From Sneathiella sp. (GTDB lineage: Bacteria; Pseudomonadota; Alphaproteobacteria; Sneathiellales; Sneathiellaceae), in NCBI RefSeq assembly GCF_029233945.1, contig NZ_JARGOQ010000034.1, positions 1 to 42,187 on the forward strand: 42,187 nt of DNA, in the 5' to 3' direction. Positions 313 to 23,718 of this stretch are shown here, in pieces. Position 1 is the stretch's first letter; each line of letters begins with the position of its first letter. The position numbers were made by a program, and so were the translations under genes. Under the pieces are notes generated by a model. That model was not told the origin of the DNA. It saw only the letters and a program-made list of their open reading frames with translations, and made no database searches.

Positions 313-1350
313 TTGGAATCGCGGGGAAATGCCGAGAGTAATGGGACTCGTCGGCAATTAAAGCAATATCTTAAAAATCTGAACAGCGCCTGGTTTACAC
401 AAGAACGAATTGTGTTTGCATTTGCCGTTATTCTCTTTGTTTTTTTCTCAATTGCATTGAGTGGTTTTTTCGCGCTTGATAACCTGATAAACCTGATGCG
501 GAATGTATCGGTGCTGGGCATACTCGGCATTGGCATGGCGATTGTCGTTATCGGCCGGGGTATTGATCTGTCGATGATTGCTGTCATGGCCGTTTCATCC
601 GCCTGGACACTCCAACTTATGCAAGACGGACATAGTTTGGGAGTGGCGCTCCTCGCTGGTCTTTTATGTGCCCTCAGCGTTGGCATTATAAACGGGCTGC
701 TCATCGCTTTTGTCGAAATTCCGGCTTTATTTGCGACCCTGGCGACCGGGATTTTTTTGTATGGTGTCGGCAAGTCCATGCTGCTCGATCTTGATGTAAT
801 TTATCTGCCGGAAAATCTCGGTTGGTTTGAGGATATTGGTAAAGGTAGGCTGGGGCCGGTGCCCATGACGGTCATTTTTTGCGGGCTGGCGATGCTCGCG
901 GCCTATCTGTTCCTCTCCAAAACAAGGTTCGGGCGGTTTATATACGGTACCGGCGATAACCCCTTGGCGGCGCGCATTACCGGCATCCCGGTCCGCGTTA
1001 TCATTACGGCACAATATACATTGGCATCCTTCATCGGATTTTTTGCGGGAATTATTGTCTCTACTGCTGTCTCGTCAATGAATACACGCATATTTCATTC
1101 GACGATGATTTACGACGTTATCCTGGTTGTCGTCCTGGGCGGCATCGGATTAAGCGGCGGTAAGGGGAGTATCCGAAATGTCATCGTTGGAACACTGTTG
1201 ATTGGCACTTTGCTCAACGGGATGACCATCATGGATATGCAGTACACGATGCAGAATCTCATCAAAAGCCTGATACTGCTCGGTGCTATCATTCTCGACA
1301 GTTTTTTACATCCACGCAACGAAGAAACAGCTCAACAGGGCGACATATAA
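313..1350 (+). CDS. Ribose-type ABC transporter permease
   Basis: Membrane subunit of a carbohydrate-type (RbsC/BPD_transp_2) ABC importer. The 345-residue protein has a hydrophilic N-terminus of about 35 residues, then many hydrophobic segments. It carries the family features: GIGMAIVVIGRGIDLS around residues 74-89, an N-G-x-L segment (GIINGLLIAF), and the loop GDNPLAARITGIPV before the C-terminal half. Length is normal for the family. The start is a TTG at 313, chosen because GGGGAGA at 299-305 gives good spacing and no ATG fits. It is the first gene of a five-gene operon; the binding-protein gene follows after 17 bases. The operon holds a second permease, so the channel is probably a heterodimer. 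Substrate is unknown; a sugar, sugar acid or lactone is likely from the propeller enzymes encoded beside it. Confidence 0.9.
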   Translation: MESRGNAESNGTRRQLKQYLKNLNSAWFTQERIVFAFAVILFVFFSIALSGFFALDNLINLMRNVSVLGILGIGMAIVVIGRGIDLSMIAVMAVSSAWTLQLMQDGHSLGVALLAGLLCALSVGIINGLLIAFVEIPALFATLATGIFLYGVGKSMLLDLDVIYLPENLGWFEDIGKGRLGPVPMTVIFCGLAMLAAYLFLSKTRFGRFIYGTGDNPLAARITGIPVRVIITAQYTLASFIGFFAGIIVSTAVSSMNTRIFHSTMIYDVILVVVLGGIGLSGGKGSIRNVIVGTLLIGTLLNGMTIMDMQYTMQNLIKSLILLGAIILDSFLHPRNEETAQQGDI

Positions 1351-1367: not shown

Positions 1368-2381
1368 ATGTTGAAAAGAAATTCGATTAAAAAATTAATC
1401 CTTGGACTTGCAACAGCAGCGACGTTCGGACTAACGGCGAATGTTGCCATGGCGGAATTGAAAGACGAACTGCGGGACCCCTATCTAGAGTCATTTAAAG
1501 GCAAAAAAGTGGCCTTTGTGCCGGTTGCAATGGGCGTCGATCTGACGGAAGGGTGGGCAGATGGCATTCGATCTGCTGCAGATAAATACGGTTTCGAGTT
1601 TGTGGTTCGTGATCCGAACTGGAGTACGGATGCTGGTACGCAAGCAATTACGGCCCTCATTGCGGAGAAGCCGGATATTATTGTCGTGCATAACCCGGAT
1701 GTCCAGTCCTATGCCCGGTTGCTGAAAAAGGCTGAAAAAGCGGGTATCAACGTAATCCAGGTCAATATGAAATCGAGCTATTCCACCAATGTCTATGTGG
1801 GTGCGGACTGGGTTGAAATGGGCGAAGCCGGGGCGAACGAAATGGTAAAGCGCTGCGGCAAGGATTCAGGAAAATCCGGAAAGGTCGCCATCATACAGGG
1901 TGTGCTGACCGGGGCCGCGAGCGTCTACCAGATTGGGGGCGTCATGAATGTTCTGGAAGGCCGCGATGATATTGAAATTGTCGCCAACCAGGCGGCGGAT
2001 TGGGACGCCTCCAAGGCCAAGGCGATTACCCAGACGGTTTTGCAACAGCATCCTGATCTTTGTGCCGTTTTTGGCTTTTGGGATAGCATGACCCTCGGTG
2101 TGGGAGCGGCTGTCAAGGAAGCGGGAAAATTGGATCAGGTTGCAATCTTGACGAATGGCGGCGGCAACCAAATGGCGTGTGACAATGTGAAATCAGGTAT
2201 ATTTGACAAGGTCTGGAGTTATGATGTTCCCGGGCAGGCGCGCGACATGGTTGACATGATCAAGGTGATATTCCAGTCGAATTCGAAGCCGGGCGATATG
2301 CGGGTGGCGCTTTACACACCTCTCAAAGTAATCAGCATGGAAAATTTTGATCCGACAGATTGCTGGTCGATGAAGAAATAA
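1368..2381 (+). CDS. Periplasmic sugar-binding protein of ABC transporter
   Basis: Substrate-binding subunit (RbsB-like, type I periplasmic binding fold, Peripla_BP_4 type), 337 residues. The N-terminus is a clear Sec signal peptide: positive MLKRNSIKK, a hydrophobic stretch, then a cleavage site after AMA near residue 29. The mature part begins with GKKVAFVPVAMGVDLTEGW, typical of the first beta-alpha unit, and includes the DIIVVHNPD and ILTNGGG segments of the two lobes. A strong Shine-Dalgarno (AGGAGGAGG) precedes the ATG. It follows the first permease by 17 bases and is followed by a strong hairpin before the next gene. That layout would keep this subunit in excess over the membrane parts. 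The ligand cannot be read from the sequence. Confidence 0.9.
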   Translation: MLKRNSIKKLILGLATAATFGLTANVAMAELKDELRDPYLESFKGKKVAFVPVAMGVDLTEGWADGIRSAADKYGFEFVVRDPNWSTDAGTQAITALIAEKPDIIVVHNPDVQSYARLLKKAEKAGINVIQVNMKSSYSTNVYVGADWVEMGEAGANEMVKRCGKDSGKSGKVAIIQGVLTGAASVYQIGGVMNVLEGRDDIEIVANQAADWDASKAKAITQTVLQQHPDLCAVFGFWDSMTLGVGAAVKEAGKLDQVAILTNGGGNQMACDNVKSGIFDKVWSYDVPGQARDMVDMIKVIFQSNSKPGDMRVALYTPLKVISMENFDPTDCWSMKK

Positions 2382-2434: not shown

Positions 2435-2464
2435 TTTTCTGCTTGGTTGCTTAAGGAGACAGAC

Positions 2465-4588
2465 GTGGCTTCTTCGAACGCTCTTGTGCGGGCCCGCTAT
2501 AAGTATTTTCCGGATCATCTGGTTGGTGAACTACTGTCAAAGCGTTGGATGGAATCGGCCGTCCCAACGATTATCTTGGCAGCTGTTTTTCTGTACCTCG
2601 TCAATACATTGCCGAACTATTTGTCGCCGATCAATCTCATGGACCTCGGGCGTCTTTATGCGGAATTCGGGCTTGTTGTGCTGGCGATGGCGTTGGTCAT
2701 GATCGGCGGTGGCGTTGATCTTAGCATCGGTTCCATGTTTGCGCTTTGTAATGTCGCCATGCTTTCGCTGATCAATATGCTGGAATGGCCGTTATGGATT
2801 GCCATTCCGTCTGTCCTCATTTTTGGGGCGGCGTTGGGGGCGATCAACGGTTATCTTATCGGGTATCTCAAGCTTCGCGCCTTTCTCACGACCCTCGTGA
2901 CGTTAATCATTTACCGAGCGTTATTCGACATTGCGCTATCAAATTTTGCGGTTGAAATTTCCGGAGGATTTTTGGATTCGGAAGTGTGGGAGTTCATTGG
3001 GGATGGGGATGTTTTTGGCATTCCATCAAGCCTGATTGCTTTTCTGGTGGTTGCGATCGGCGGTCACCTCGTCATGAGCCGGACTCGCCCGGGCTGGCAT
3101 ATCCTGGCCATTGGCGGCGCTCGCAGATCAGCTTATAACGCTGGAGTCGCCGTAAATCGTACGATCTTCATGACTTACGTTGTGTCAGGTATCCTGACGG
3201 CTTTGGCGGCTGTCTTTTTCGCTGCTCGTCTCGGTACAGCGGGCTCCGACGTCGGCGTGGGGATGGAAGTCGCGATCCTGACCGCTGCGGTGTTGGGCGG
3301 GATTAGTCTTGGCGGAGGGCGAGGCTCTGTCGCAAAAGCAACAATGGGCAGCGCTATTGTCCTCCTGATCACCAACGGTATGCTGCGAATGGGAATGGAG
3401 GGGGGCTCCAGCTCTGTGGCACTTGGCGTCATTCTGTTGATCGCTGTCGGAATTGATGTGAAATGGCTCAAGAACCGGCACAAGATTATCAGTAAGGTCT
3501 ATGTCAGCCCGGCCTATCTCGAATTGGTGCCGGCTCCTTCCGCAGAAAAGAATTCCGGTACGGTCTATGAAGTCAATGATCGCCTGAAAACCGTGACGGC
3601 CATCGGCCTTGGCAATATTGAAGGTCCTGAAGATGTTATTCTTGATCATCAGGATAATCTTTTTACCGGCACGCGACATGGCGATATCGTCAAGTTTTCC
3701 GGTCCTAATTACGAAAAGCAGGAAGTATTCGCTCATATCGGGGGCCATCCTCTGGGTATGGCGTTCGATCCGGATGGTAATTTGCTGTCCTGTGTTGGCG
3801 GGATGGGCCTTTATGGGATCAAGCCGAGCGGTGAAGTCTATCGTTTGACGGATCAGACAAACCGCACTTGGCACTCCATCAACGATGACTCCCGATTGCG
3901 GCTGGCTGATGATTGTGATGTGACACCCGACGGCGAAGTCTATTTCAGCGAGGCGACCATACGCTATGAAATGCATAGCTGGTCGCTGGATAGCCTGGAG
4001 GGAAGAGGGAACGGGCGCATCATCTGCTACGATCTGAACACGAAGAAAACCCGAACCGTCATCCGCAATCTGTTGTTTCCAAATGGCATCTGTACGGCGT
4101 TTGACGGTAAGTCCATTTTGTTTGCCGAAACCTGGAAATGCGCCATTTCCCGCTATTGGATTGATGGGCCGAAGCGCGGGAAGGTTGAGCCGGTCATTCC
4201 AAATTTGCCGGGCTATCCTGATAATATTAACCGTGCATCGGATGGTAATTACTGGTTGGCACTGGTTGGTATGCGCACACCGACCTTCGACCTTGCCATG
4301 AAAATGCCGTCCTTTCGTCGGCGCATGGCCCGGCGCGTCGCACCGGATGAATGGCTGTTCCCCAATATCAATTCCGGCTGTGTTCTGAAATTCAATGAGG
4401 CGGGGGAGATTCTTGATGTCTATTGGGACCTCGGCGGGGAGAGCCATCCGATGATTACCTCCATGCGCGAACATAAGGGGCATCTGTATCTTGGCGGACT
4501 TTCCAACAACCGCATCGGTCGTTACAAATTGGATAACGCCGATCCCGACTGGGTGGGCATCGACACCTATTGGGGGAAATCAAAATGA
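2465..4588 (+). CDS. ABC permease fused to strictosidine synthase/APMAP-like beta-propeller
   Basis: A 707-residue two-domain protein. Residues 1 to about 350 are a complete ribose-type permease, with VMIGGGVDLSIGSMFAL, GAINGYLIGYLKLRAF and LGGISLGGGRGSV. Residues about 375-705 are a six-bladed propeller of the strictosidine synthase/APMAP/SMP-30 group. There the segment LFPNGICTAFDGKSILFAET, then the LPGYPDNINRASDGNYWLA region and a late GHLYLGGLSNNRIGRY match the family pattern. Such propellers hydrolyse lactones or esters, usually with a bound metal. The start is GTG 2465, because AAGGAG at 2453-2458 is correctly spaced; an upstream ATG at 2360 would overlap the binding-protein gene and run through the hairpin. 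The TGA overlaps the next gene's ATG (ATGA). With ten permease helices the propeller should face the cytoplasm, so it may act on the substrate as it enters; this is inference. Confidence 0.85.
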   Translation: MASSNALVRARYKYFPDHLVGELLSKRWMESAVPTIILAAVFLYLVNTLPNYLSPINLMDLGRLYAEFGLVVLAMALVMIGGGVDLSIGSMFALCNVAMLSLINMLEWPLWIAIPSVLIFGAALGAINGYLIGYLKLRAFLTTLVTLIIYRALFDIALSNFAVEISGGFLDSEVWEFIGDGDVFGIPSSLIAFLVVAIGGHLVMSRTRPGWHILAIGGARRSAYNAGVAVNRTIFMTYVVSGILTALAAVFFAARLGTAGSDVGVGMEVAILTAAVLGGISLGGGRGSVAKATMGSAIVLLITNGMLRMGMEGGSSSVALGVILLIAVGIDVKWLKNRHKIISKVYVSPAYLELVPAPSAEKNSGTVYEVNDRLKTVTAIGLGNIEGPEDVILDHQDNLFTGTRHGDIVKFSGPNYEKQEVFAHIGGHPLGMAFDPDGNLLSCVGGMGLYGIKPSGEVYRLTDQTNRTWHSINDDSRLRLADDCDVTPDGEVYFSEATIRYEMHSWSLDSLEGRGNGRIICYDLNTKKTRTVIRNLLFPNGICTAFDGKSILFAETWKCAISRYWIDGPKRGKVEPVIPNLPGYPDNINRASDGNYWLALVGMRTPTFDLAMKMPSFRRRMARRVAPDEWLFPNINSGCVLKFNEAGEILDVYWDLGGESHPMITSMREHKGHLYLGGLSNNRIGRYKLDNADPDWVGIDTYWGKSK

Positions 4589-5679
4589 AGCTGTTTGATT
4601 TCGGGCCGATTGCAAAATACCTCGGGCGGGGTGAGGCCAGTATTACCGTTCCGATGCTTGACGGGGCGTTTCGGCCCAATGATTTTCTGGAAAAGGCACA
4701 GGTTGTCGCGGAACATCCCGGTGCTGATTGTCTCGCTGTGGATAAGGGCCGGCTTTTCCTGTCGGCTGGCGATAGCGTTTACCCTGTTGGGGAAGAGGCA
4801 TCTGATCCTGTTGCTCGCTTTGATGACGACGTAACAGCACTCGCGATTAATGGCGACTTGGTTGCCGTTGGCCTGTCAAACGGCGGCATATGCATTCGCG
4901 GTGGAGATCCTGAAAATCGCGTTATAACGGAGATAGCGGGGCGCTCCATTAACTGCCCGACAGCGCTCTATTTTCAGGGAAACCGGCTGATTGTCGCCAA
5001 TGGTTCAGACAGGACGCAAGCTGACGACTGGTCACGGGATTTGCTGGAACGCAATATTGGCGGCGATGTGCTGGCAATCGATCTGAAAAGTGGTGCGGAA
5101 GAAATTCTGGCCTCTCACCTCGCCTACGCGAATGGTCTTACGGAAACCTCTGACCACAAGATTGCAGTCTCTCAAAGCTGGAATCACTGCGTTTCGATAT
5201 TGGAGAACCAGAATATCGCCGCCACCGCCAGCCGGAATTTGCCCGGCTACCCCTCCCGTATTTCCAAAGCACCGGACGGGGGCTATTGGCTGGCAATTTT
5301 CGGAATGCGGACCCAGCTGATAGAATTTATTCTTCGCGAAGATAGCTATCGCACTCAAATGCTGGAAACTGTCCCTCCTGAGTACTGGGTCGCTCCGTCG
5401 CTAACATCGCGGGAACATTTTATGGATCCTTTGCAGCAGGGCGGTGTCAAGCGGCTGGGCATCAAGAAACCCTGGGCGCCACCTCGCTCATATGGGCTTG
5501 CCGTAAAACTGGATGCGAATTTCAATCCGATACTAAGCGTTCATAGCCGGGCAGGCGGGCTCTTTCACGGAGTCACCTCGGCGCTCGAAAGGGATGGGAT
5601 ACTGTATGTGACGAGCCGGGGGGCGGGTCAGGTTCGCGCCGTTGATCTTGCGATCGTAGAACAGGAAACCGTAAAATGA
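4585..5679 (+). CDS. Strictosidine synthase/SMP-30-like beta-propeller protein
   Basis: A 364-residue protein with no signal peptide, so probably cytoplasmic. The second half carries the same family pattern as the propeller fused to the preceding permease: YANGLTETSDHKIAVSQSW, then NLPGYPSRISKAPDGGYWLA followed by IFGMRTQ, and a late GVTSALERDGILYVTSRG. Likely a lactonase or related hydrolase, or a non-catalytic sensor of the transported compound. The start is ATG 4585, overlapping the upstream stop as ATGA with GGGGGAAA just before. A TTG five codons earlier is possible but has worse spacing. The C-terminal ATG overlap with the ATPase gene shows translational coupling through the operon. The N-terminal third (1-130) is divergent and may be a degenerate pair of blades. 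Confidence 0.75.
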   Translation: MKLFDFGPIAKYLGRGEASITVPMLDGAFRPNDFLEKAQVVAEHPGADCLAVDKGRLFLSAGDSVYPVGEEASDPVARFDDDVTALAINGDLVAVGLSNGGICIRGGDPENRVITEIAGRSINCPTALYFQGNRLIVANGSDRTQADDWSRDLLERNIGGDVLAIDLKSGAEEILASHLAYANGLTETSDHKIAVSQSWNHCVSILENQNIAATASRNLPGYPSRISKAPDGGYWLAIFGMRTQLIEFILREDSYRTQMLETVPPEYWVAPSLTSREHFMDPLQQGGVKRLGIKKPWAPPRSYGLAVKLDANFNPILSVHSRAGGLFHGVTSALERDGILYVTSRGAGQVRAVDLAIVEQETVK

Positions 5680-7184
5680 GCGATACCAACCAACCCCTGA
5701 TAAAAATCGAACATGGGTCAAAGATCTATCAAAGCGTTTATGCCATTCAGGACATTAATTTCGACTTATATCCCGGCGAGGTGCACGCCATTCTGGGAGA
5801 AAACGGCGCCGGCAAATCGACCCTCACGAAAGCGCTCGCGGGAGTTGTCTCTTTGACAGAAGGCCGCTTGCTTCTGGAAGGCAAGGAATGCAACTTCAAA
5901 AACCCCCGCGAAGCACTGGAAGCCGGAATAGCAATGGTTTTTCAGGAAACCAGCCTGGTGCCGACGATGACAGTTGCCCAGAATCTGTATTTGGGGGAGG
6001 AAAAGTTCTTTAACCGCCTGAGAGAGTTGTATATCTCCGCCCAGCAGTTTCTGCAGGGATTGAATTTTGGTGTCGATCCAACGGTTAATGTTGCCATGCT
6101 TGGAGCCGCTCAAAAACAGATGGTTGAGATCGCACGTGCGGTTCTGCATAACGCCAAGGTCATTATTTTTGACGAGCCAACGGCAACGCTGACACCGGAA
6201 GAGAAGCAGCATTTTTTCAACCTACTGAAAGACCTTAAACGAAAAGGGGTTGGGGTCATTTTCATTTCGCATGCGCTGGAGGAGGCGCTCGACCATGCCG
6301 ATCGCATTACAATCCTGCGCGATGGTCAGCATATCGCAACAGATGCGGCCCAAAATTTTGACAGGGACAAGGTTGTGCAGGCCATGGTCGGGCGGGAACT
6401 GTCTGATAAACTCTATTCGAAACATGCGAATACGACACGCCGCGCCCGCGGTCAGAAAATACTGAGTGTTGAGAATTTGTCCATGCAAAGCATTGTCAAA
6501 AATAACTCATTTTCTATTTATGCGGGCCAGATCACGGGTATTTTCGGTCTCATCGGGTCGGGCCGTACGGAAACCGCCAAAATTATTTCCGGGGTCGTCA
6601 AGCGTGATTTCTTTCATGGGGGAGAGGTTTATCTGGAAGGCAAACCGATACGGTATAATGTGCCCAAGCAAGGCATGCGGGACGGCATCGCCTATGTGAC
6701 GGAAGATCGAAAAATCGAGGGTTTTTTCGAGACCATGTCAATTGGCGATAATATCTATATGGGTCACCTCGCAGTTTCAGGTCAGGAGGAAGCTATTCTC
6801 TCGACCAAGCGTCATGACAATATCGCCAAAAAATGGATCAAGACACTCAACGTCAAGGCGCTCAATGCGGACGCGCGTGTGGTTGAGCTTTCCGGTGGAA
6901 ATCAGCAGAAAGTCGTCATTGGCAAATCTCTCTGCCAGAACCCTAAAATTATTTTCTTCGACGAACCTACCCGGGGTGTTGATGTCGGCGCGATCCAGGA
7001 AATTCACGATCATCTGAACAGGCTTGCCGATCAGGGACTCGCTGTCGTCGTGATTTCTTCGTATCTGCCAGAAATCCTGAACCTGTCGGACCGCATACTT
7101 GTCGCGCGACAGGGAAAGATAATCGAGGAATTCAGTACGGAAGAAGCGACCGAGAAAAAAATTATGTATGCGGCAGTTCATTAG
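5676..7184 (+). CDS. Sugar-type ABC transporter ATPase, double domain
   Basis: Cytoplasmic energy subunit (RbsA/MglA type), 502 residues, with two fused nucleotide-binding domains. The first has Walker A GENGAGKST near residue 43, a signature region LGAAQKQMVEIARA and Walker B VIIFDEPTATLT. The second has a degenerate P-loop (GLIGSGRTETAKI), a full signature LSGGNQQKVVIGK and Walker B IIFFDEPTRGVDVG. A degenerate second P-loop is normal for this family. Its ATG overlaps the preceding stop by four bases. It is the last gene of the operon; about 250 non-coding bases follow. Confidence 0.92.
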   Translation: MSDTNQPLIKIEHGSKIYQSVYAIQDINFDLYPGEVHAILGENGAGKSTLTKALAGVVSLTEGRLLLEGKECNFKNPREALEAGIAMVFQETSLVPTMTVAQNLYLGEEKFFNRLRELYISAQQFLQGLNFGVDPTVNVAMLGAAQKQMVEIARAVLHNAKVIIFDEPTATLTPEEKQHFFNLLKDLKRKGVGVIFISHALEEALDHADRITILRDGQHIATDAAQNFDRDKVVQAMVGRELSDKLYSKHANTTRRARGQKILSVENLSMQSIVKNNSFSIYAGQITGIFGLIGSGRTETAKIISGVVKRDFFHGGEVYLEGKPIRYNVPKQGMRDGIAYVTEDRKIEGFFETMSIGDNIYMGHLAVSGQEEAILSTKRHDNIAKKWIKTLNVKALNADARVVELSGGNQQKVVIGKSLCQNPKIIFFDEPTRGVDVGAIQEIHDHLNRLADQGLAVVVISSYLPEILNLSDRILVARQGKIIEEFSTEEATEKKIMYAAVH

Positions 7185-7434: not shown

Positions 7435-8463
7435 TTGAATAGCAAAGAAATTGAGGATCGCCTCAGACTGAAATTCAGCCGTGACAGCGGCGGGCAGAAA
7501 TCTATTTCGGATTTCCAAGTCATGCCCGACGGCCATGCGGGCCTGACCTTTGGCTTTTCGGCAATTGGGCTAGATGGTCGCCGCGATGAATATATCCTGA
7601 AAGTCGCGCCATTCGGAGTGCGTCGCAGTGGAAATACCGATGTCTATCGTCAGGCACCTTTGCTCCATGCGCTTTTCTCTGCGGGTCTGCCCGTTCCGGA
7701 TGTTCCTTATTCGTCGCCGGACGAAACCGAGCTTGGAACGCCGTATATTATAATGGAACGGCTTCCCGGGCGTACGTTTGTGATCTGGGCTCCTCATACT
7801 AGTTTTCGGCCTGAGGAAACAGGACCAATTTGGCGGCAAGGAGCGAAGGCACTTGCGCAAATTCATGGATATGACTGGCAACCGGAATTGTCTGGCTGGG
7901 GCCGTGTTCGCGCGCTGTCGGATGAACTTTCCTTCTGGGCGCCGATACTGGCCAAAACGGAGAATAAAGCATGGCTCACCAAAGGACAGAAGCTGGCGGC
8001 GCAGCTCGCGGATAATCCGATCGCCCCGGGCCCCACAGGCGTTGTCCATGGTGATTTCCAGCCCGGAAATTTACTATATGTCAATATGAAACTGACCGGG
8101 ATTATAGATTGGGAGCTTGCGTTCATAGGCCCGCAAAATCTGGATCTGGGCTGGCTGCTGATGATGGCCGATAAGGATGCCTGGCACGATAACTGGCAGC
8201 CTGTGTGCGATATTTCCGCAGAAGAACTGGTCTCGATTTACGAAAAGGAACGGGGCCAAAAGGTTGAGAATAAAGAATGGTTTGAAGCGCTCGCCTGTTA
8301 CCGGTTGGGAGCGATTGCAACGCTGAATATCGGATTGCATCAGCGCGGTAAACGCACGGATGATTTCTGGGAACGGATGATCGGCAGCGTTGATACATTA
8401 TTTGAGCGCGGCATCGAGTTGAGCTCGCCTTCACATACATCTAATAAAACGGGAGCATTATAA
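7435..8463 (+). CDS. APH-fold phosphotransferase, ACAD10/LvaA-like
   Basis: Small-molecule kinase of the aminoglycoside phosphotransferase fold, 342 residues. The segment TPYIIMERLPGRTF forms the hinge region. The catalytic loop VVHGDFQPGN has H205 and D207, and the metal-binding GIIDWELAF has D225. The start is TTG 7435, with GGGGAGA at 7423-7429. Its stop overlaps the acyl-CoA dehydrogenase ATG (TAATG). That pairing mirrors the fused kinase and dehydrogenase domains of human ACAD10/ACAD11, and LvaA/LvaC of Pseudomonas putida, where the kinase phosphorylates a 4-hydroxyacyl-CoA. Phosphorylation of a hydroxyacyl-CoA is therefore the best guess. An antibiotic-resistance role is unlikely from the context. 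Confidence 0.8.
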   Translation: MNSKEIEDRLRLKFSRDSGGQKSISDFQVMPDGHAGLTFGFSAIGLDGRRDEYILKVAPFGVRRSGNTDVYRQAPLLHALFSAGLPVPDVPYSSPDETELGTPYIIMERLPGRTFVIWAPHTSFRPEETGPIWRQGAKALAQIHGYDWQPELSGWGRVRALSDELSFWAPILAKTENKAWLTKGQKLAAQLADNPIAPGPTGVVHGDFQPGNLLYVNMKLTGIIDWELAFIGPQNLDLGWLLMMADKDAWHDNWQPVCDISAEELVSIYEKERGQKVENKEWFEALACYRLGAIATLNIGLHQRGKRTDDFWERMIGSVDTLFERGIELSSPSHTSNKTGAL

Positions 8464-9650
8464 TGGTTGATTTTTCGCATTCTGCGGAGCTTTTGGAACT
8501 GCGCGATCGCATAGGGCAGTTCATTCGAGAGAAAATTGTCCCGCTTGAGCATGATCCCCGGCAGGGACCGCACGGGCCGGAAGATGCGTTAATTCGGGAA
8601 ATGCAGGAGATGGCACGCAAAGCGGGCTTTTTGTCGCCTCACGCGCCGGAAAAATGGGGCGGTTTAGGCCTGGACCATGTTGGCATGGCTGTCATATTCG
8701 AGGCGGCGTGCTATTCGTCACTCGGGATGCTGGCCCTGAATATTCAAGCGCCGGATGAGGGAAATACGAATTTGCTGGCGAAGGTTGGAACGCCGGAGCA
8801 AAACGAAAAATGGCTGCGTCCGCTGGTCGAGGGTAAGATCCGAACGGTATTCCAGATGACCGAACCGGATAACGGGGCGGGCTCCGATCCGTCCTTGATG
8901 AAGACCTCGGCGCGCCAAAAGGGCGATCACTATATTATAAATGGTACAAAATGGCTGATCACGGGATATCCGGGCGCAGGGCTTCACATCATCATGGCCA
9001 GAACGTTTGATGAAGCCGGTGAGGATGTTGGCGCAACCATGTTTCTTGTTCCCGAAGGGACGCCGGGCATGAAGATGGTTCGTCTGCTTGACACCATGGA
9101 CAGCAACAGTCCCGGCGGTCATGGCGTTGTCGAACTGAAGGACGTCAAGGTCAAAGCCGAAGACATACTGGGACAGGTTGGAAAAGGATTCCGAAATGCG
9201 CAAGTAAGGCTCGGGCCGGCGCGGCTGACCCATTGCATGCGCTGGCTGGGGCAGGCAGTCCGATGCCATGATATCGCGGTTGACTATGCCCAGCGGCGGC
9301 AGTCCTTTGGCAAGGCCATTGGCTATCATCAGGGAATAGGGTTTCAACTGGCGGACAATGAAATTGACCTCGATCACTGCCGACTATCGATTTTACATTG
9401 CGCCTGGCTTATGGATCAGGGAGAAATGGCCCGCAAGGAAACCAGCCAAAGCAAGGTTTATTGCTCTGAAGCGCTGGGCCGGGTTGTTGACCGCTGTGTG
9501 CAGGTTCTTGGCGGTCTCGGGATCACCAGTGATACGATTGTTGAGCGCACTTATCGTGATATACGCGCGTTCCGTATCTATGACGGCCCGTCGGAAGTGC
9601 ATCGGCATGTATTGGCAAACGGTATAATGAAGCGCGCGGCCGCTGAATGA
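8463..9650 (+). CDS. Acyl-CoA dehydrogenase, ACAD10/11-like
   Basis: FAD-dependent acyl-CoA dehydrogenase family protein, 395 residues, full length. The N-terminal helical domain begins VDFSHSAELLELRDRIGQF. The middle domain has FQMTEPDNGAGSDPS, the FAD/substrate loop. The C-terminal domain has YAQRRQSFGKAIGYHQ, QVLGGLGITSDT and the RIYDGPSEVHR end motif. The segment GPARLTHCMRWLGQAVRC matches the ACAD11-type RxxHCMR pattern. It is translationally coupled to the APH-fold kinase, so it probably uses the phosphorylated hydroxyacyl-CoA and forms an enoyl-CoA for beta-oxidation, as proposed for ACAD11 and the Lva pathway. The acyl substrate is not determined by the sequence. Confidence 0.88.
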   Translation: MVDFSHSAELLELRDRIGQFIREKIVPLEHDPRQGPHGPEDALIREMQEMARKAGFLSPHAPEKWGGLGLDHVGMAVIFEAACYSSLGMLALNIQAPDEGNTNLLAKVGTPEQNEKWLRPLVEGKIRTVFQMTEPDNGAGSDPSLMKTSARQKGDHYIINGTKWLITGYPGAGLHIIMARTFDEAGEDVGATMFLVPEGTPGMKMVRLLDTMDSNSPGGHGVVELKDVKVKAEDILGQVGKGFRNAQVRLGPARLTHCMRWLGQAVRCHDIAVDYAQRRQSFGKAIGYHQGIGFQLADNEIDLDHCRLSILHCAWLMDQGEMARKETSQSKVYCSEALGRVVDRCVQVLGGLGITSDTIVERTYRDIRAFRIYDGPSEVHRHVLANGIMKRAAAE

Positions 9651-9683
9651 AGGCGGCGCGGCTTCTCCCGGATGGCAGGAAAA

Positions 9684-10334
9684 ATGAATAAAGCTATAGG
9701 CGCAAAAAAGTCAAACAAGCATGCGAAACGTCGACACCCGGCTTTTGAACGAAGTGAGGAGTTCGGACGCAAGAGAAAGGCAATGGTTCAAACGGCGGCC
9801 TATCTGTTTAATCGGACTGGATTTCACGCGACATCGATCAACGATATTTCGGAGGCGCTGGGTATCTCGCCCGCCGCCGTTTATTATTATTTTTCCGACA
9901 AGACAGACCTCCTGCATCACTGCCACCTGAGCGCGATCGAGAAAAGCCTGATTTTGGCTCAAGCAGCGGACGAGGGCGGTGGCAGCGGAATCGAGAAGCT
10001 GGAACGATATATTCGGAGCCAGTTTCATGCCTTGATCAGTAAGGAGGGGACGGCATGGGTCTTTGGGGATATCTCCGCCTTGAAACCGAGCCAGCGCGAA
10101 GACATCGTTGTCCGGTCCCGTGAGGTTGATAATTTTATTCTCAGATTTATTGAACAAGGCGTCGCAGATGAAAGTATCGCGATAAGTAATCCCAGAATTA
10201 CGGAATTTTTTATGATCGGGGCTTTGAACTGGGTTCCTCGATGGTACAGACCAGAGTCTAACCTGACTGCGGAGGACTTAACAGAAATCTTCCTGCAATT
10301 TGCCTTCGACGGCATGCGGCCAAGGCGTGATTAG
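9684..10334 (+). CDS. TetR-family transcriptional regulator
   Basis: A 216-residue one-domain repressor. A basic N-terminal tail of about 30 residues leads into a TetR helix-turn-helix: MVQTAAYLFNRTGFHATSIN, then DISEALGISPAAVYYYFSDK. The C-terminal ligand-binding domain is unspecific, as usual. The start is ATG 9684 because AGGA at 9676-9679 precedes it; an ATG at 9672 is also in frame but has no ribosome site. It lies 33 bases after the acyl-CoA dehydrogenase gene, in the same direction, and so probably regulates that pair in response to an acyl-CoA. It resembles fatty-acid-type TetR regulators in general layout. Confidence 0.85.
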   Translation: MNKAIGAKKSNKHAKRRHPAFERSEEFGRKRKAMVQTAAYLFNRTGFHATSINDISEALGISPAAVYYYFSDKTDLLHHCHLSAIEKSLILAQAADEGGGSGIEKLERYIRSQFHALISKEGTAWVFGDISALKPSQREDIVVRSREVDNFILRFIEQGVADESIAISNPRITEFFMIGALNWVPRWYRPESNLTAEDLTEIFLQFAFDGMRPRRD

Positions 10335-10729
10335 CGGGAAGGCGTAAAAAACAAAATGAATGAGTTCGGGAGATGGAGCCGCTGGTTTTGGCGGAAATTT
10401 ACCATATAGCCTCATTAACTCAGAAATGCCGGAGACCAATTCGCGTTAGACTTCCGTCTCCGCCACACTTTCCTCCGTTCTCTCACTAAAATTCACGATC
10501 GGACGCAGGCAAACGGATTTACGGCCGCCTGTCACATAAATTTCTTGAAACCATCCGCAATTCTACACAGAACCCCGCCACCATGTCGTCGCTTTGTAAG
10601 GCATTCGTGTGATGACGCGGCGAGGGGACATTTTGTCCGGTAACAGTTTGGAAATTGCTCAGGAAGCTTATCGTCGCTGGATGGATGATCTGGCGGACGG
10701 CTTGCCGTGGTAAAGGGAGAGGATGGCTG
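10335..10729. other. Gap between tetR and phnH
   Basis: About 395 bases without a well-supported gene. It contains a short open frame at 10612-10713, listed separately, and should carry the phnH promoter. I see no strong terminator with a T tract after the TetR gene; CCGC-N8-GCGG near 10378-10394 is a weak hairpin only. Confidence 0.4.
10612..10713 (+). CDS. Possible 33-residue small protein upstream of phnH
   Basis: ATG 10612 opens a 33-codon frame ending in a TAA 16 bases before the phnH start. The predicted peptide contains EIAQEAYRRWMDDLADGLPW. I do not recognise it. In most organisms phnG lies just upstream of phnH, but this peptide is far too short and does not look like PhnG. No clear ribosome site precedes it. 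It could be a leader peptide or chance. Confidence 0.2.
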   Translation: MTRRGDILSGNSLEIAQEAYRRWMDDLADGLPW

Positions 10730-11332
10730 ATGACGAATTCAGGCATTCCTTCACTTATAGGCGGATTTAGCAATAAGGCCTCAGATTCCTTAGCCTGCTA
10801 CAGCACCCTGCATGAGGCGACGTCAAATCCGGCGACCATTTTTCAGTTGCCTGTTACCGTTGCTGCGCCGCGTGGATTGATGATGGGCGCGGTTGTTATC
10901 CTGCTGACCCTCGCAGATGCCGAGACGCCCGTCTGGTTGGCGCCGGAATGCGACACGACGGAAGCCCGGGCACATCTTCTCTTTCATACCGGGTGTCCCA
11001 TCGTGGCGGAGCCGGAGCTTGCCGCGTTCGCAGTCATGTCCGTAGAGCGGGACTTGTCAATCACAAAGGATTTGGGCCTTGGTCTCGCAGAATATCCGGA
11101 TCGCACGGCAACGGTCATCCTCGAATCCGAGCGGCTGATCGACGGGGAGGGGCCGCTTTTTCACGGTCCCGGAATGACGGAGCCGCGCCGGTTCTGCGTG
11201 GAGGAGCATCCGCCGTCTCTCTGGGTACATATCGCCGCTAACCAGGCTCTATTTCCGCGCGGTGTCGACTGGATTTTTGCAAGCCCCACCGAGCTTGCGG
11301 CCCTGCCGCGATCGACGAAAATAGAGCTCTAA
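10730..11332 (+). CDS. phnH: Phosphonate C-P lyase subunit PhnH, orphan
   Basis: A 200-residue protein matching PhnH along its length. The opening is IGGFSNKASDSLACYSTLHE; then VVILLTLADAETPVWLAP, FHTGCPIVAEPELAAFAV, LAEYPDRTATVILE, LFHGPGM, and the C-terminal ALFPRGVDWIF and LPRSTKIEL. PhnH is a subunit of the PhnGHIJ core that makes the ribose-1-phosphonate precursor of carbon-phosphorus bond cleavage. The start is ATG 10730 with AAAGGGAGAGGA just before; a TTG further upstream would add an unrelated 25-residue tail. The striking point is isolation: none of phnG, phnI, phnJ, phnK, phnL or phnM is in the window, although other phosphonate genes begin within 1 kb. The C-P lyase operon may be elsewhere, or this PhnH may have another role. 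Confidence 0.85.
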   Translation: MTNSGIPSLIGGFSNKASDSLACYSTLHEATSNPATIFQLPVTVAAPRGLMMGAVVILLTLADAETPVWLAPECDTTEARAHLLFHTGCPIVAEPELAAFAVMSVERDLSITKDLGLGLAEYPDRTATVILESERLIDGEGPLFHGPGMTEPRRFCVEEHPPSLWVHIAANQALFPRGVDWIFASPTELAALPRSTKIEL

Positions 11333-11377
11333 TTTCGCCCCTGCGCCGCATCGGTACAGGTCGATTTCCCTGGGGTG

Positions 11378-12079
11378 TCACTCTTTGCGAAGTCGCCATT
11401 TAAATATCAGGAAATATAGTATGCAAACGATTATCCAGCTCAAGAGCATTGTAACAATCGTATGGGAGAGAAAATGCCTTCCGTTGAGCATTTGATACCC
11501 TCCCATAACCCAACCGGCAGTTAAGGCACCGGCAAGGGCGAGGAGTTTTTGTTTTTTTGACCTGACCAGGGGGATAAAGAGAAGCAGGGCGAATCCGGCG
11601 GAGGCATGCCCAGCTGGAAAACATTTGCCGCCATTGCCCAAATGGCTGTCTTGGAATGGATGCACATAGGGTTTTGTGCCGCCATATTCCTCAAGCTGGT
11701 ACGGGCAATAGACATTGGTAATCTTTTTTCCGACCCCCACGGTCAGCGGAACGAGAATGGCGCATAGAATGATAAAAAGCTGCTTGCGGGTTCGAAATTT
11801 TGCAAACGCCTTTAGGATGAAGGAAAGTATAAACAGCAGTAATACTGAACTCGCGTAAGCAATCAGTAGCCATCTTGGCAGGTTATAAAACAGGAATCTC
11901 AAGGTCGGTTCGTTCGCGTTGATAACCCATGCCTTGCCGTCGAAGAAGTAATTCGAAAGATAAAAGTCAAGATGGGTGGCCTCGAATACAATCAGGACAA
12001 TGACAAGGAGGAGTGCCGAGTAGATCAGTTGACGCCCTATATTCAGGTCATAACAGGGATCCTGTTTCTTGCTTTTCAT
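11378..12079 (-). CDS. Membrane PAP2-family phosphatase
   Basis: A 233-residue integral membrane protein with about five or six hydrophobic segments and a phosphatidic-acid-phosphatase type 2 active site. The three motifs are K-K-I-T-N-V-Y-C-P (the K...RP block, in the variant with CP), GGKCFPAGHASAGF (the PSGH block with the catalytic His) and GRHFLSHTIVTMLLSW (SR...H block). The family removes phosphate from lipid pyrophosphates or lipid A. I chose ATG 12079; the open frame continues 95 codons upstream, but that part is hydrophilic, unlike the family, and reaches into the next gene's leader. It sits alone on the minus strand inside the phosphonate region, divergent from the choline-kinase-like gene and convergent with phnH. 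Whether it shares phosphate-stress control cannot be told. Confidence 0.8.
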   Translation of the reverse strand: MKSKKQDPCYDLNIGRQLIYSALLLVIVLIVFEATHLDFYLSNYFFDGKAWVINANEPTLRFLFYNLPRWLLIAYASSVLLLFILSFILKAFAKFRTRKQLFIILCAILVPLTVGVGKKITNVYCPYQLEEYGGTKPYVHPFQDSHLGNGGKCFPAGHASAGFALLLFIPLVRSKKQKLLALAGALTAGWVMGGYQMLNGRHFLSHTIVTMLLSWIIVCILYFLIFKWRLRKE

Positions 12080-12312
12080 TGTGGCGTTCTTTCGTCGCTT
12101 ACAAGGCATACATAATAGATTTTTTGCGAATGGCGGACAGGGCAGGTGTGATGCTTTTTCCCTGACTCTACTTACAGCACTTGGATGTTTTCTACCAGAA
12201 TTGGATAGCTTCCCCTTGCTGTCATTCTTTGCTAGGTAGGATGGGCCCTTTTCGCTCAAAATCTGAGCGGTAAAGGCGGCATTGCACTTCGTGGAATTTA
12301 GTGGACGGTGGC

Positions 12313-13194
12313 ATGACTTCGGCACAGGAGAAAATTTCCGGGCTATCTCTCTGGCGAGCAACACCTTCTATCGAGCCGCTGGACGGGGGTATGACAAATG
12401 CGAACTTCCTCGTGACGGAAAGTGGTTGTCGCTATGTTGTCCGGCTTGGCGAAGATATTCCGTTTCATCACATCTCCCGTGAATATGAACTATCCGCTAG
12501 CCGGGCCGCTCATGCCGCCGGGATCTCGCCCGCCGTTGTCCATGATGAGCCGGGTGTTCTGGTGCTTGACTATATCGAGGGGAGAACGCTCACGCCGGAG
12601 GATCTGCTTGATGGTCCCTTGCGTGATAGGGCGATCCATCTCATCCGGCAGGCGCATCGGGAGATTCCGGTAAAACTCCAGGGGTCCACGCCGATTTTTT
12701 GGGTCTTCCATGTATTGCGGGAGTATGCACGGCTCTTGTCCGACGGCGATAGCCTTCATGTGAGCAGGATTGCGGATTTCCTTAAAATTACGGCGGAGAC
12801 GGAGGCGCGCTCTGGCCCCTACGATATCGTCTTCGGCCATAATGACCTGCTCGCCGCTAATTTCCTGGATGACGGAAAGCGGCTTTGGCTGATCGACTGG
12901 GAATATGCAGGGTTTAACACGCCGCTCTTTGATCTTGCAGGGCTCGCCTCCAATAATGATTTTGTCGAAGAGATGGAAAAAACCATGTTGGAAAGCTATT
13001 TCGAGGCTCCGCTCAGCGATGACCTCTGGGCCCGTTATCAGGCAATGAAGGTCGCCTCCCTCCTCAGGGAGGTGATGTGGAGCATGGTGTCGGAGCTTTA
13101 TTCCACGCTTGAATTCGATTATGGACAATATACCGAAAGCTGCCTTGAAAGGTTCGAGACGACTTACGACAGCTATAAGAAGGATTACCTCTGA
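12313..13194 (+). CDS. Choline/ethanolamine kinase-like phosphotransferase
   Basis: A 293-residue protein kinase-fold phosphotransferase of the LicA/choline kinase group. The N-terminal lobe has LDGGMTNANFLV, typical of choline kinases (GMTN block), then YVVRLGED with the ATP-binding region. The catalytic loop is VFGHNDLLAANFL with H176 and D178. The metal site is LWLIDWEYAG with D195. The start is ATG 12313; an in-frame GTG 12301 is possible. Its TGA is immediately followed by the ATG of the next gene, so the two are coupled. The context is a trimethyl-AEP catabolic operon, so the substrate may be choline, an N-methylated ethanolamine or a related amino alcohol. Whether it works in breakdown or in making phosphocholine head groups is open. 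Confidence 0.75.
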   Translation: MTSAQEKISGLSLWRATPSIEPLDGGMTNANFLVTESGCRYVVRLGEDIPFHHISREYELSASRAAHAAGISPAVVHDEPGVLVLDYIEGRTLTPEDLLDGPLRDRAIHLIRQAHREIPVKLQGSTPIFWVFHVLREYARLLSDGDSLHVSRIADFLKITAETEARSGPYDIVFGHNDLLAANFLDDGKRLWLIDWEYAGFNTPLFDLAGLASNNDFVEEMEKTMLESYFEAPLSDDLWARYQAMKVASLLREVMWSMVSELYSTLEFDYGQYTESCLERFETTYDSYKKDYL

Positions 13195-15648
13195 ATGGCG
13201 AAAGAACTTCCGACAACGGCGAAGGCGGTTGTGATCGGCGGCGGGATTGTGGGCTGCTCGACAGCTTATCATCTGGCGAAACTTGGCTGGACGGATACGG
13301 TTCTGCTGGAGCGTAAAAAACTCACCTCCGGCACCACCTTTCATGCGGCGGGGCTGGTAGGGCAGCTGCGTTCCAGCGCCAATATCACGGAGCTTTTGGG
13401 ATATTCCGTCGATCTTTATAACCGGCTGGAGAAGGAAACCGGTCTCGCCACCGGATGGAAGATGAATGGCGGCCTTCGCCTCGCCTGTAACGACGCCCGA
13501 TGGGAAGAGGTCAAGCGGCAGGCAACGACCGCGCAGTCCTTTGGTCTTGAAATGCAGCTCCTGAGCCCGTCCGAGGCGCGGGATCTCTGGCCGATCATGT
13601 CGGTGGAGGATGTGGTTGGAGCGGCATTCCTTCCGACGGATGGGCAGGCGAACCCGTCCGATATTACACAGGCGCTGGCAAAAGGAGCGCGCATGGCAGG
13701 GGCGTCAATTTTTGAGGATACATGCGTCACGGATATCCGGATTGAAAATGGAAAAATAAAAGGCGTTCAGACGGATAAGGGATTTATTGAATGTGAAATC
13801 GTTGTCTGTTGCGCAGGTCAATGGACGCGCGAGTTCGCGCAGCGTTTCGGCGTGAATGTGCCGCTCGTCCCGGTGCAGCATCAATATCTGATTACCGAGA
13901 CTATTCCGGATATGCCGCGTAACCTCCCCACTTTGCGCGATCCTGACCGGCTGACCTATTATAAGGAGGAGGTGGGCGGTCTCGTCATGGGGGGATATGA
14001 GCCCAACCCGATCCTCTGGGCGGAAGACGGTATCCCGGAGGATTTTCATTTTTCGCTGCTGCAATCCGATTTTGATCATTTCGAGCCGATGATGGAACTG
14101 GCGCTTGGTCGTGTTCCGGCGCTGGAGACCGCAGGAATAAAAGAGTTGGTGAATGGTCCGGAAAGCTTCACGCCCGATGGAAACTTCATTCTGGGCGAAG
14201 CGCCGGAGCTTAAAAATTTCTTTGTCGGCGCCGGGTTCAACGCCTTTGGTATTGCCTCCGGCGGTGGGGCGGGCATGGTGCTGGCGGAATGGGTCGCAAA
14301 AGGGGAGCCGCCCTATGATCTTTGGGCGGCGGACATCCGCCGCTTCGGAAAGCCGCATTTCGATGACGACTGGATTAAAAAGCGCACCGTCGAGGCCTAT
14401 GGCAAGCATTACACCATGGCCTGGCCGCATGAAGAGCATCAAAGCGGACGCCCGTTTCGAACCTCCCCGCTTTATGACAGGCTGAAGGCGGCGGGGGCCT
14501 GCTTTGGCGAGAAGCTGGGCTGGGAGCGGCCAAACTGGTTCGCGGAGATAGAAGCGGGGGAGACACCGGAAGATATTTATAGCTTTGGCCGGGCCAACTG
14601 GTTTGAGGCTGTCGCGCGGGAGCATAAAGCCGCGCGGGAAGCGGCGGTCCTGATCGATCAGACCTCATTCGCTAAATTTCATTTGTCCGGGCCGGATGCC
14701 GCAGCGGCGCTCGACTGGATTGCGGCAGGCAATGTCCTGCGGCCCAACGGATCGGTTATCTATACACAGATGCTGAATGAGAAGGGCGGGATTGAGTGTG
14801 ACCTGACCGTTACTCGACTGGAGGAGAATGAATTTTATATCGTCACGGGAACGGGTTTCGCGACCCATGACTATAACTGGATCCTGAAGAATATTCCATC
14901 ACATGCAAACTGCACTTTGAGCGATATAACAGGAGAGCGTTCCGTTCTTTCATTGATGGGGCCATTGTCGCGGGAAATTCTGGGGCAGGTGACGGAAGAT
15001 GATATCTCCCACAACGGTTTTCCCTTCGCAACGGGACGTATGATCGAGATTGCGGGCCATCCTGTCCTGGCGCTGCGGCTTACCTATATGGGGGAACTCG
15101 GCTGGGAACTGCATATGCCTGTCGATGAGGTGGGCGCTGTGCATGACGCCCTGATGCGTGCGGGCGCGCCGTTGGGCCTGAAGAATGCGGGCTATCGCAC
15201 GATTGAAAGCTGCCGGCTTGAAAAGGGCTATCGCGCCTGGGGATCGGATATCGGACCGGACCACACCCCGGTTGAGGCCGGGCTTGGCTGGGCGATGAAA
15301 CTAAAGTCGGGACGTGACTTCAAGGGCCGCGCGGCGATTGAGACGCAGAAGGCAAAGGGCGTTCGGAAAATGCTGGCTTGCTTCACGGTCGATGACCCGG
15401 ATGTCATCCTCTTGGGGCGGGAGACGATTTATCGAAATGGGGAACGGGTCGGCTGGCTTTCCAGTGGCGGTTACGGTCACACTATTGAAAAATCAATCGG
15501 CTATGGATACATCCGCAATCTGGATGGGGTGGATGCGGAATTCGTGCAGAGCGGCAGCTATGAGCTTGATGTTGCCTTGACACGGGTGCCATGCCGGGTG
15601 CATCTGGAGCCCCTTTATGATCCGCAGATAAAGAAAATTAAATCGTGA
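13195..15648 (+). CDS. Dimethylglycine/sarcosine dehydrogenase-like flavoprotein with GcvT domain
   Basis: An 817-residue protein. Residues 1 to about 400 are a DAO-type FAD domain with the dinucleotide fold AVVIGGGIVGCSTAYHLAKL at residues 11-30. The TTFHAAGLVGQLR block follows, where H50 matches the His that holds FAD covalently in dimethylglycine dehydrogenase. Residues about 430-817 are the FAO-M linker and GcvT-type folate-binding domain (YMGELGWELHMP, ESCRLEKGYRAWGSDI, SGGYGHTIEKSIGYGYI). The enzyme should oxidatively remove an N-methyl group and pass it to tetrahydrofolate. It lies directly after the kinase gene and 26 bases before tmpA. Since TmpA/TmpB make glycine betaine, dimethylglycine or sarcosine oxidation downstream is a natural role. 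N-methylated AEP is an alternative substrate. Confidence 0.88.
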   Translation: MAKELPTTAKAVVIGGGIVGCSTAYHLAKLGWTDTVLLERKKLTSGTTFHAAGLVGQLRSSANITELLGYSVDLYNRLEKETGLATGWKMNGGLRLACNDARWEEVKRQATTAQSFGLEMQLLSPSEARDLWPIMSVEDVVGAAFLPTDGQANPSDITQALAKGARMAGASIFEDTCVTDIRIENGKIKGVQTDKGFIECEIVVCCAGQWTREFAQRFGVNVPLVPVQHQYLITETIPDMPRNLPTLRDPDRLTYYKEEVGGLVMGGYEPNPILWAEDGIPEDFHFSLLQSDFDHFEPMMELALGRVPALETAGIKELVNGPESFTPDGNFILGEAPELKNFFVGAGFNAFGIASGGGAGMVLAEWVAKGEPPYDLWAADIRRFGKPHFDDDWIKKRTVEAYGKHYTMAWPHEEHQSGRPFRTSPLYDRLKAAGACFGEKLGWERPNWFAEIEAGETPEDIYSFGRANWFEAVAREHKAAREAAVLIDQTSFAKFHLSGPDAAAALDWIAAGNVLRPNGSVIYTQMLNEKGGIECDLTVTRLEENEFYIVTGTGFATHDYNWILKNIPSHANCTLSDITGERSVLSLMGPLSREILGQVTEDDISHNGFPFATGRMIEIAGHPVLALRLTYMGELGWELHMPVDEVGAVHDALMRAGAPLGLKNAGYRTIESCRLEKGYRAWGSDIGPDHTPVEAGLGWAMKLKSGRDFKGRAAIETQKAKGVRKMLACFTVDDPDVILLGRETIYRNGERVGWLSSGGYGHTIEKSIGYGYIRNLDGVDAEFVQSGSYELDVALTRVPCRVHLEPLYDPQIKKIKS

Positions 15649-15662
15649 TTGCATCGGGTTGA

Positions 15663-17427
<1,765 letters not shown>

Positions 17428-17434
17428 GCTGAGG

Positions 17435-18313: not shown

Positions 18314-18366
18314 ATTATTTTCCGATCCTCTATACCAATAATATAGCTCTAGCCAAATGAAAGGCC

Positions 18367-18383
18367 ATTAATATCGATTTAAT
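18367..18383. promoter_or_regulatory. LysR-type dyad, also a CtrA-like box
   Basis: ATTAA-N7-TTAAT forms a dyad centred at 18375 with T-N11-A geometry, in the lysR/phnW intergenic region. The same bases fit TTAA-N7-TTAA, the CtrA consensus. Position next to a LysR gene favours the LysR reading, but the sequence alone does not decide. Confidence 0.45.
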
Positions 18384-18395
18384 CTATGTGTCAAT

Positions 18396-18414
18396 TGTAA
18401 ATAACGATTTTACA
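18396..18414. promoter_or_regulatory. Second LysR-type dyad before phnW
   Basis: TGTAAA-N7-TTTACA is a perfect six-base dyad centred at 18405. It lies 30 bases, about three helical turns, from the dyad at 18367-18383. Such paired, in-phase sites are typical of the recognition and activation sites of LysR regulators. The phnW start is 66 bases downstream. Confidence 0.45.
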
Positions 18415-18480
18415 TATATTACGTTGTTTACTAGGTTCTGGATCACCCGCGGTGAAATTTTTTGGTGAAGGTTTTACATA

Positions 18481-19683: not shown

Positions 19684-19710
19684 AATATCTGAACTGGAGT
19701 TATATAGACG

Positions 19711-22445: not shown

Positions 22446-22597
22446 AGAAAAATTCGCAGAATTTTGCGGTTATATGAAAGTATGGAAATATTTAACATAT
22501 CGATAAAATTTATATATACATAAATATAATAGATTTCTTCTATTTGTCACATTACGCCAGTATTGCATTGAGTAATAAATGATTGCGATTCAAATTT

Positions 22598-22627
22598 GGA
22601 TCTTTGTGGATCTTTGTGGATCTTTGT
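22598..22627 (+). repeat. Three tandem copies of a 10-bp repeat before the AEP transporter
   Basis: GGATCTTTGT occurs three times with no mismatch, back to back (22598, 22608, 22618), followed by GGG. The ten-base period is one helical turn. It sits 54-83 bases upstream of the binding-protein start, where a regulator site or slippage-prone spacer could change transcription. Confidence 0.75.
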
Positions 22628-22680
22628 GGGTATGATCTAGTTTAATTCTCAACTAATCTCTTAAAAGGGGGAGCGACAAG

Positions 22681-23700: not shown

Positions 23701-23718
23701 TCCAAGCAACCAAAAAAG

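Follow-up and report, generated by a model that had tools for sequence, protein, structure and literature searches.

Organization of the locus

The window, i.e. the whole stretch of 42,187 nucleotides of Sneathiella sp. DNA that was analysed, carries a cassette of five genes in the order partner permease (P1), substrate-binding protein, permease–propeller fusion, free propeller and ATPase, which is followed by genes of a kinase, an acyl-CoA dehydrogenase and a regulator (Table 1). ATGA overlaps join the fusion gene to the free propeller gene (ATG at 4585) and the latter to the ATPase gene. The frame of the fusion is unbroken up to its one stop codon at 4586–4588. GTG at 2465, behind an AAGGAG motif, is the likely start, with TTG starts also present upstream. 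Four Pfam families were matched above their cut-offs: BPD_transp_2 at residues 68–327 (106.5 bits, cut-off 26.8), SSL_N at 367–411 (49.4 bits, cut-off 18.9), SGL at 471–602 (47.6 bits, cut-off 26.3) and Str_synth at 482–568 (74.8 bits, cut-off 25). The proposal of a preliminary description of this DNA, that a full permease and a full propeller form a single chain, was thereby confirmed, and no stop codon separates the two domains. The predicted structure of the 707-residue chain had a mean pLDDT of 85.2 and a pTM of 0.69, and its placement of the propeller against the permease is therefore provisional.

Table 1. Features of the cassette and of the genes behind it
Feature	Position	Strand	Basis or remark
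Partner permease P1, an unfused CUT2 protein whose precise start is uncertain	313..1350	+	BPD_transp_2, 95.4 bits; first gene of the cassette
Periplasmic substrate-binding protein	1368..2381	+	Peripla_BP_4, 160.9 bits; ribose-contact positions replaced
AAGGAG, likely ribosome-binding site of the fusion	2453..2458	+	read from the sequence
Fusion gene, CUT2 permease and strictosidine-synthase-like propeller, 707 aa	2465..4588	+	frame, Pfam, model
Permease part, residues 1–345	2465..3499	+	BPD_transp_2 at 68–327; model helices up to residue 345
Conserved linker, residues 346–365	3500..3559	+	Y346 and P349 invariant in 40/40
Fused propeller part, residues 366–707	3560..4585	+	Pfam, model, ligand positions
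Metal-ligand positions E389, D482, N540, D586, N587	codons at 3629, 3908, 4082, 4220, 4223	+	alignment and conservation
Free propeller of 364 aa without the metal-ligand positions (Asn replaced by Arg)	4585..5679	+	homology, fold, alignment
Tandem ABC ATPase	5676..7184	+	ABC_tran, 187 bits, two stretches
Kinase of the APH family, akin to the kinase domain of ACAD11	7435..8463	+	Pfam, solved matches
Acyl-CoA dehydrogenase, ACAD11 among the best solved matches	8463..9650	+	Pfam, solved matches
TetR-type regulator (TetR_C_24)	9672..10334	+	its cluster also beside cassettes L013, L050 and L064

A frameshift, a missed stop or an assembly artefact was ruled out as the origin of the junction, because the same fusion recurs in the own genome (a second, diverged copy, 44% identical), in plasmid records and in a congener (92% identical); altogether 105 fused chains were collected.

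Conservation and spread of the cassette

A scan of 84,980 species genomes gave at least 511 relatives of the fused C-terminal domain, and the best 80 of these loci were used. Gene calls on them, together with eight further sequences, yielded 92 fusions, and the exact five-gene order was found in 78 of these. Of the 14 that deviate, 12 abut the end of a contig; in one of the other two the binding-protein gene is split, and in the second it is doubled. The occurrence of a fused and a free propeller in one operon, which had been singled out in the preliminary description, is thus real and close to obligate. As the 80 loci were picked by the fused C-terminal domain, they cannot alone show that unfused forms are rare, but this can be taken from 398 genomes of the phylum that were sampled without regard to the fusion. 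There, 44 propeller matches were found, comprising 18 fused propellers, 23 stand-alone ones and three free propellers of cassettes. Every match of at least 53% identity was fused (18/18, frames of 707–840 aa), and the stand-alone propellers were 29–39% identical to the fused one; a seemingly long stand-alone frame of 956 aa (G695) turned out on checking to be a separate 365-aa gene. In this sample, the suggested search for the domain order across genomes thus gave only fused forms at close range. A chance coincidence involving a lone fusion was ruled out by the conserved order together with the 398-genome sample.

The fusion was present in 10/385 genomes of the class and in 9/24 genomes of the genus. 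It was matched over at least 80% of its length in 15 of 72,556 plasmid records, with hosts in Rhizobium, Celeribacter, Shinella, Sulfitobacter, Paraburkholderia, Salipiger, Paracoccus and Pantoea as well as a Paracoccaceae bacterium. In the own genome, the entire cassette occurs once more, in diverged form, on another contig, where it adjoins genes of a TetR regulator, a CaiB-type CoA-transferase and, by eye, a carboxyltransferase-like protein. Pairwise distances of the five genes were strongly correlated over the 78 cassettes (r of 0.90–0.98), and a Mantel test of the fusion against the free propeller gave 0/500. Judged by these sequence distances, the five cassette genes have evolved together. 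In a tree of 25 fused, 25 free and 19 stand-alone propellers, in which the order of descent is unrooted, each type formed one clade (support of 0.865, 1.0 and 0.999, respectively).

Two loci were unusual in their setting. A Dongia genome bin (L045, 1–21125) contains three tandem cassettes within 21 kb. Another cassette, whose propeller is 70% identical to that of the window, lies on a contig labelled Mycobacteriaceae (L035, 1–7927), and contamination of the bin is likely in this case.

The fused propeller and its putative metal site

Pfam matches and predicted fold identify the fused domain as a six-bladed propeller of the strictosidine-synthase-like kind. Among solved proteins, TGW6 was the best match by sequence (E of 9.1e-24 with the single sequence and 3.2e-32 by profile). 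The structural comparison, in which the VIA-align rows span only the propeller and not the permease part, likewise placed TGW6 first with Z of 35.2, followed by strictosidine synthase (∼34), DFPase (∼30), the lactonase RPA3624 (29.8) and paraoxonase (27.7); the lactonase Drp35 was a further structural relative. Glu309, which we take to be the catalytic residue of strictosidine synthase, is aligned with Thr in 105/105 fusions, and strictosidine synthase activity of the fused propeller was rejected because of this replacement.

In the alignment with TGW6, residues E389, D482, N540 and N587 correspond to TGW6 E59, N167, N226 and N272, for which an offset of 28 between the chain and the published numbering was worked out in this analysis. 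These four are described as Ca-chelating positions in the TGW6 report, in which the protein is an IAA-glucose hydrolase with a lone acid at the ligand site and calcium was not found (PMC10958001). Among the 105 fusions, E389, N540 and N587 were invariant, D586 was kept in 103, and position 482 was Asp in 101 and Asn in four; at least two acids were present at the ligand positions in 101/105. The ligand positions of the fused propeller thus coincide with the Ca-chelating positions that have been assigned in TGW6 and in other propellers. With these positions kept in 103 to 105 of the 105 chains, the propeller does not lack all metal-binding residues, the finding that would have counted against the preliminary description.

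The free propeller

The free propeller was homologous to the fused one (hhalign probability of 100, E of 2e-38). Its model (pLDDT of 89.7) had the same fold, and its best Foldseek match was strictosidine synthase. Nevertheless, the relationship is remote, as the Pfam Str_synth score was below the cut-off (18.0 versus 25 bits), and the ligand positions have been lost: one ligand Asn is Arg in 98/102 sequences, the ligand Asp is Ser, Gly or Ala in 102/102, and the other ligand Asn is retained in 9/102 only. Hence the preliminary description was correct in placing a second propeller of the same family next door, but this one is a distant member devoid of the metal-ligand positions and is probably not a second enzyme. 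As far as the aligned residues tell, the cassette pairs an enzyme-like fused propeller with a degenerate free one. Because the latter has kept its fold and its co-inheritance without the ligand positions, a non-catalytic role is likely for at least one propeller of the cassette.

Membrane side and binding-protein pocket

The permease part gave no solved relative in phmmer at E of 0.001. Its N-terminus carries a charge of +2.1, and the stretch after the last helix is basic, with a mean net charge of +3.4, which favours a position of the fused propeller on the cytosolic side. No signal peptide was seen by eye in the free propeller, and a cytosolic location is favoured for both. The placement of the propeller at the inner mouth of the transporter, as had been proposed, agrees with these charges, although the topology is itself a deduction from them.

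The binding protein groups with ribose-type proteins and was aligned to the ribose-type structure 2ioy. RbsB N190, presumably a ribose contact, is replaced by an invariant Trp in the cassette proteins. The position of RbsB D89 is Asn in 85/87 of them, that of R90 is Met or Leu in 85/87, that of R141 is mostly Ala, Val, Leu or Ile with no Arg among the residues listed, and that of D215 is Gly in 87/87. According to a study on RbsB, R141 and D215 are important for ribose, and D89 and R90 are pocket positions (PMC8343135). With these replacements, a ligand of lower polarity is favoured over a simple sugar. No NCBIfam sugar equivalog reached its cut-off, the best score of the fusion being 147.6 of the 378 bits required for AraH and that of the binding protein 73 of 335 bits.

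Neighbouring genes

The listing of neighbouring catabolic genes, which had been recommended as a check, revealed genes that make and burn acyl-CoAs. At least one of six acyl-CoA families was found near 29/34 cassettes as compared with 0/20 other CUT2 loci from nine genomes of the class, though the profiles were derived from the cassette loci themselves, so that the comparison favours the cassettes; five of the 34 had none of the six families. The region considered began 7 kb ahead of the fusion start and ended 12 kb beyond it, with loci thinned at 85% identity. The 34 loci comprised 33 of 40 alignment A2 representatives and another L045 cassette; the seven left out (L038, L040, two of L045, L060, the second of L098, and L104) mostly had short flanks. 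The profiles recognised ligases in 8/8 ligase-fetched loci of the own genome.

AMP-forming acyl-CoA ligase was the commonest operon partner (30/92 cassettes), sometimes fused to enoyl-CoA hydratase, and CoA-transferases and hydratases were also found. Ligases accounted for 27/74 first operonic neighbours and for 26/818 other genes, with relatedness ignored. At L043 (13706–16378) and similar loci, a ligase/hydratase fusion of ∼890 aa stands directly behind the cassette, the two being separate genes elsewhere. No CoA ligase gene was found adjoining the cassette of the window; the own genome holds 17 CoA ligase candidates, of which none is especially close.

Some of the neighbouring modules handle hydroxy acids that are able to form lactones. 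Degradative HMG-CoA reductase adjoins four cassettes; at L036, L072 and L168 it is accompanied by CoA-transferase, hydratase, HMG-CoA lyase and, by eye, a MocR-type gene, and at L010 by the same MocR-type gene. The pair of kinase and acyl-CoA dehydrogenase was found in 6/88 loci (L008, L050, L064, L065, L087 and the window), and an adjacent acyl-CoA synthetase is present at L008, L050, L064 and L087. Other cassette loci point to other acids. It is known that 4-hydroxy acids and mevalonate-type hydroxy acids readily form lactones. A kinase combined with an acyl-CoA dehydrogenase is the arrangement by which LvaA/LvaC and ACAD11 deal with 4-hydroxy acids (PMC12440821). For the kinase and dehydrogenase of the window, matches to other members of the APH and ACAD families were as good as those to ACAD11 or better. 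In the closest congener, whose fusion is the 92% identical one, a transglutaminase-like gene and an enoyl-CoA hydratase gene (by eye) stand behind the ATPase gene instead of the pair; the kinase and dehydrogenase may thus not belong to the substrate pathway of the window. A suspected LvaB-like protein beside L008 was dropped, having no Pfam or NCBIfam match. At L076 and L079, a glycerol-kinase-like gene precedes the cassette and trpF-, trpB- and trpA-like genes follow it on the same strand, as seen by eye.

Proposed function and alternatives

The reading that we prefer, tentatively and at somewhat less than even chances, is that the cassette imports a rather lipophilic compound, most probably a lactone, that is the precursor of a carboxylic acid; it would be hydrolysed at the inner mouth and the resulting acid activated with CoA. 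The substrate might be a γ-lactone of a 4-hydroxy acid or mevalonolactone in some members. It would be presented by the binding protein and moved inward by the pair of P1 and fusion permease at the expense of ATP. The fused propeller, hung from the last permease helix on the cytosolic side, would hydrolyse the exiting substrate by means of a Ca-type metal centre, and the acid product, being charged, would be trapped in the cell. A CoA ligase or CoA-transferase could then take over the acid, ahead of β-oxidation-like steps. The free propeller, with Arg in its metal site, might be a non-catalytic partner, i.e. a regulator, docking or specificity subunit. Of this scheme, the domain architecture, the obligate linkage, the kept and lost ligand positions and the acyl-CoA surroundings were observed, and the direction of transport, the cytosolic side, the metal, the hydrolysis, the lactone and the part played by the free propeller are inferred from them. 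Against the scheme weigh TGW6, which splits an acyl-glucose ester and in which calcium was not seen, the closest congener with other genes in place of the kinase/dehydrogenase pair, and the five cassettes that had none of the six acyl-CoA families. That all these cassettes form a widespread class of ABC importers, with a permease-borne metal hydrolase at the cytosolic exit, chemically trapped uptake and a degenerate propeller as regulatory or docking subunit, is possible though doubtful; the logic would be comparable to that of group translocation.

Since the nearest solved homologue, TGW6, is an ester hydrolase, an ester substrate is a live if unlikely alternative, in which the same machine would take up an acyl ester (e.g. 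acyl-glucose) and a TGW6-like propeller would free a sugar and a carboxylic acid for activation with CoA. TGW6 leads the solved matches both by sequence and by structure, but few relatives have been solved and the nearest of them is accordingly a weak guide. The prevalence of CoA ligases in the operons would fit, and the recruitment of a sugar-type (CUT2) importer would be explained as well, yet the binding protein is without the ribose-contact charges. A glycerol-kinase-like gene precedes two of the 92 cassettes, L076 and L079; apart from it, no sugar kinase or isomerase recurs in the clusters inspected. The acid D482, which in the fused site takes the place of TGW6 Asn-167, favours a metal. 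As the acids of both the 4-hydroxy acid and the mevalonate-type modules form lactones readily, a lactone is regarded as the first choice and an ester as the second.

It is also conceivable, although rather improbable in our view, that the propellers are not enzymes at all, and that around a structural ion the fused and free forms build a cap or gate which senses ligand or docks downstream enzymes. The free propeller indeed persists without ligand positions, and in the fused one an invariant Thr stands in place of the presumed catalytic Glu of strictosidine synthase. Nevertheless, retention of the ligand positions in nearly all of 105 divergent fusions exceeds what a scaffold seems to need, and catalytic relatives have the same kind of metal centre. 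It is very improbable that the cassette is a conventional sugar importer whose fused domain, of the gluconolactonase type, opens a sugar lactone. Such a function is what the CUT2 family, the SGL match and the public annotation ('SMP-30/gluconolactonase/LRE family protein', 'sugar ABC transporter') would suggest, but the positions of RbsB D89, R90, R141 and D215 are replaced in nearly all of the 87 binding proteins, the sugar equivalog scores fall short and the neighbours are acyl-CoA genes.

Relation to known systems

CUT2 importers of the RbsABC and AraFGH type likewise consist of a Peripla_BP_4 binding protein, BPD_transp_2 permeases and one tandem ATPase of ∼500 aa, all of which were above the Pfam cut-offs here. 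The cassette differs from them in its two dissimilar permeases, of which one bears a C-terminal propeller, in the additional free propeller, in a pocket devoid of ribose contacts and in the lack of any NCBIfam equivalog match above cut-off. Rice TGW6 (PDB 8kg3) shares four ligand positions with the fused propeller, with Asn-167 replaced by Asp in most fusions, but its PDB entry consists of a 322-residue propeller chain with no transporter attached. Strictosidine synthase shares the Str_synth and SSL_N families above cut-off but not the Glu309 position. RPA3624, Drp35, PON1 and DFPase share the fold and, by position, the metal ligands; they are ∼15–18% identical to the fused propeller and are not attached to an importer. 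APMAP, the name used in the preliminary description, is a membrane-anchored eukaryotic arylesterase of the same superfamily. In the lva and ACAD10–ACAD11 routes of 4-hydroxy acid catabolism, the kinase adjoins the acyl-CoA dehydrogenase as it does in the window and the five other loci, but the window has no adjacent CoA ligase gene; to our knowledge, those systems include no fused transporter. A report on Deinococcus radiodurans describes a natural fusion of Cu/Zn-SOD to a Ca β-propeller lactonase (PMC12362111). The partner there is a superoxide dismutase, whereas it is a transporter here.

No description of a permease–propeller fusion was found in the titles and opening lines of abstracts of the open-access literature searched. 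The parts belong to known families, and their obligate combination is apparently undescribed within that literature. Public annotation names the fusion after only one of its domains.

If the preferred reading, a lactone importer with an attached hydrolase, is true, the cassette would be an ABC importer with a permanently attached enzyme and a clear test case for the coupling of transport and the first catalytic step within a single polypeptide. Many proteins now annotated, probably misleadingly, as 'sugar ABC transporter' and 'SMP-30/gluconolactonase' would thereby acquire a function, and routes by which bacteria take up lactones and mevalonate-type and other hydroxy acids would be indicated. 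The intact and degenerate propellers would represent a natural couple of enzyme and pseudoenzyme open to direct study.

Other features of the window

Positions 10655–26947 contain an apparently complete cluster for N-methylated aminoethylphosphonate, with genes of PhnH, a choline-kinase-like protein, a dimethylglycine-dehydrogenase-like FAD/GCV_T protein, TmpA, TmpB, PhnW, PhnA and phosphonoacetaldehyde dehydrogenase; an ABC transporter was recognised there by eye. TmpA and TmpB were both above their NCBIfam cut-offs. The FAD/GCV_T protein, which reached no equivalog cut-off, could be a demethylase of methylated aminoethylphosphonate. At 38391–41595, an IS1595-type transposase gene adjoins a frame of 674 aa that has no Pfam match, and the GC content of this region is clearly lower (41–47%).
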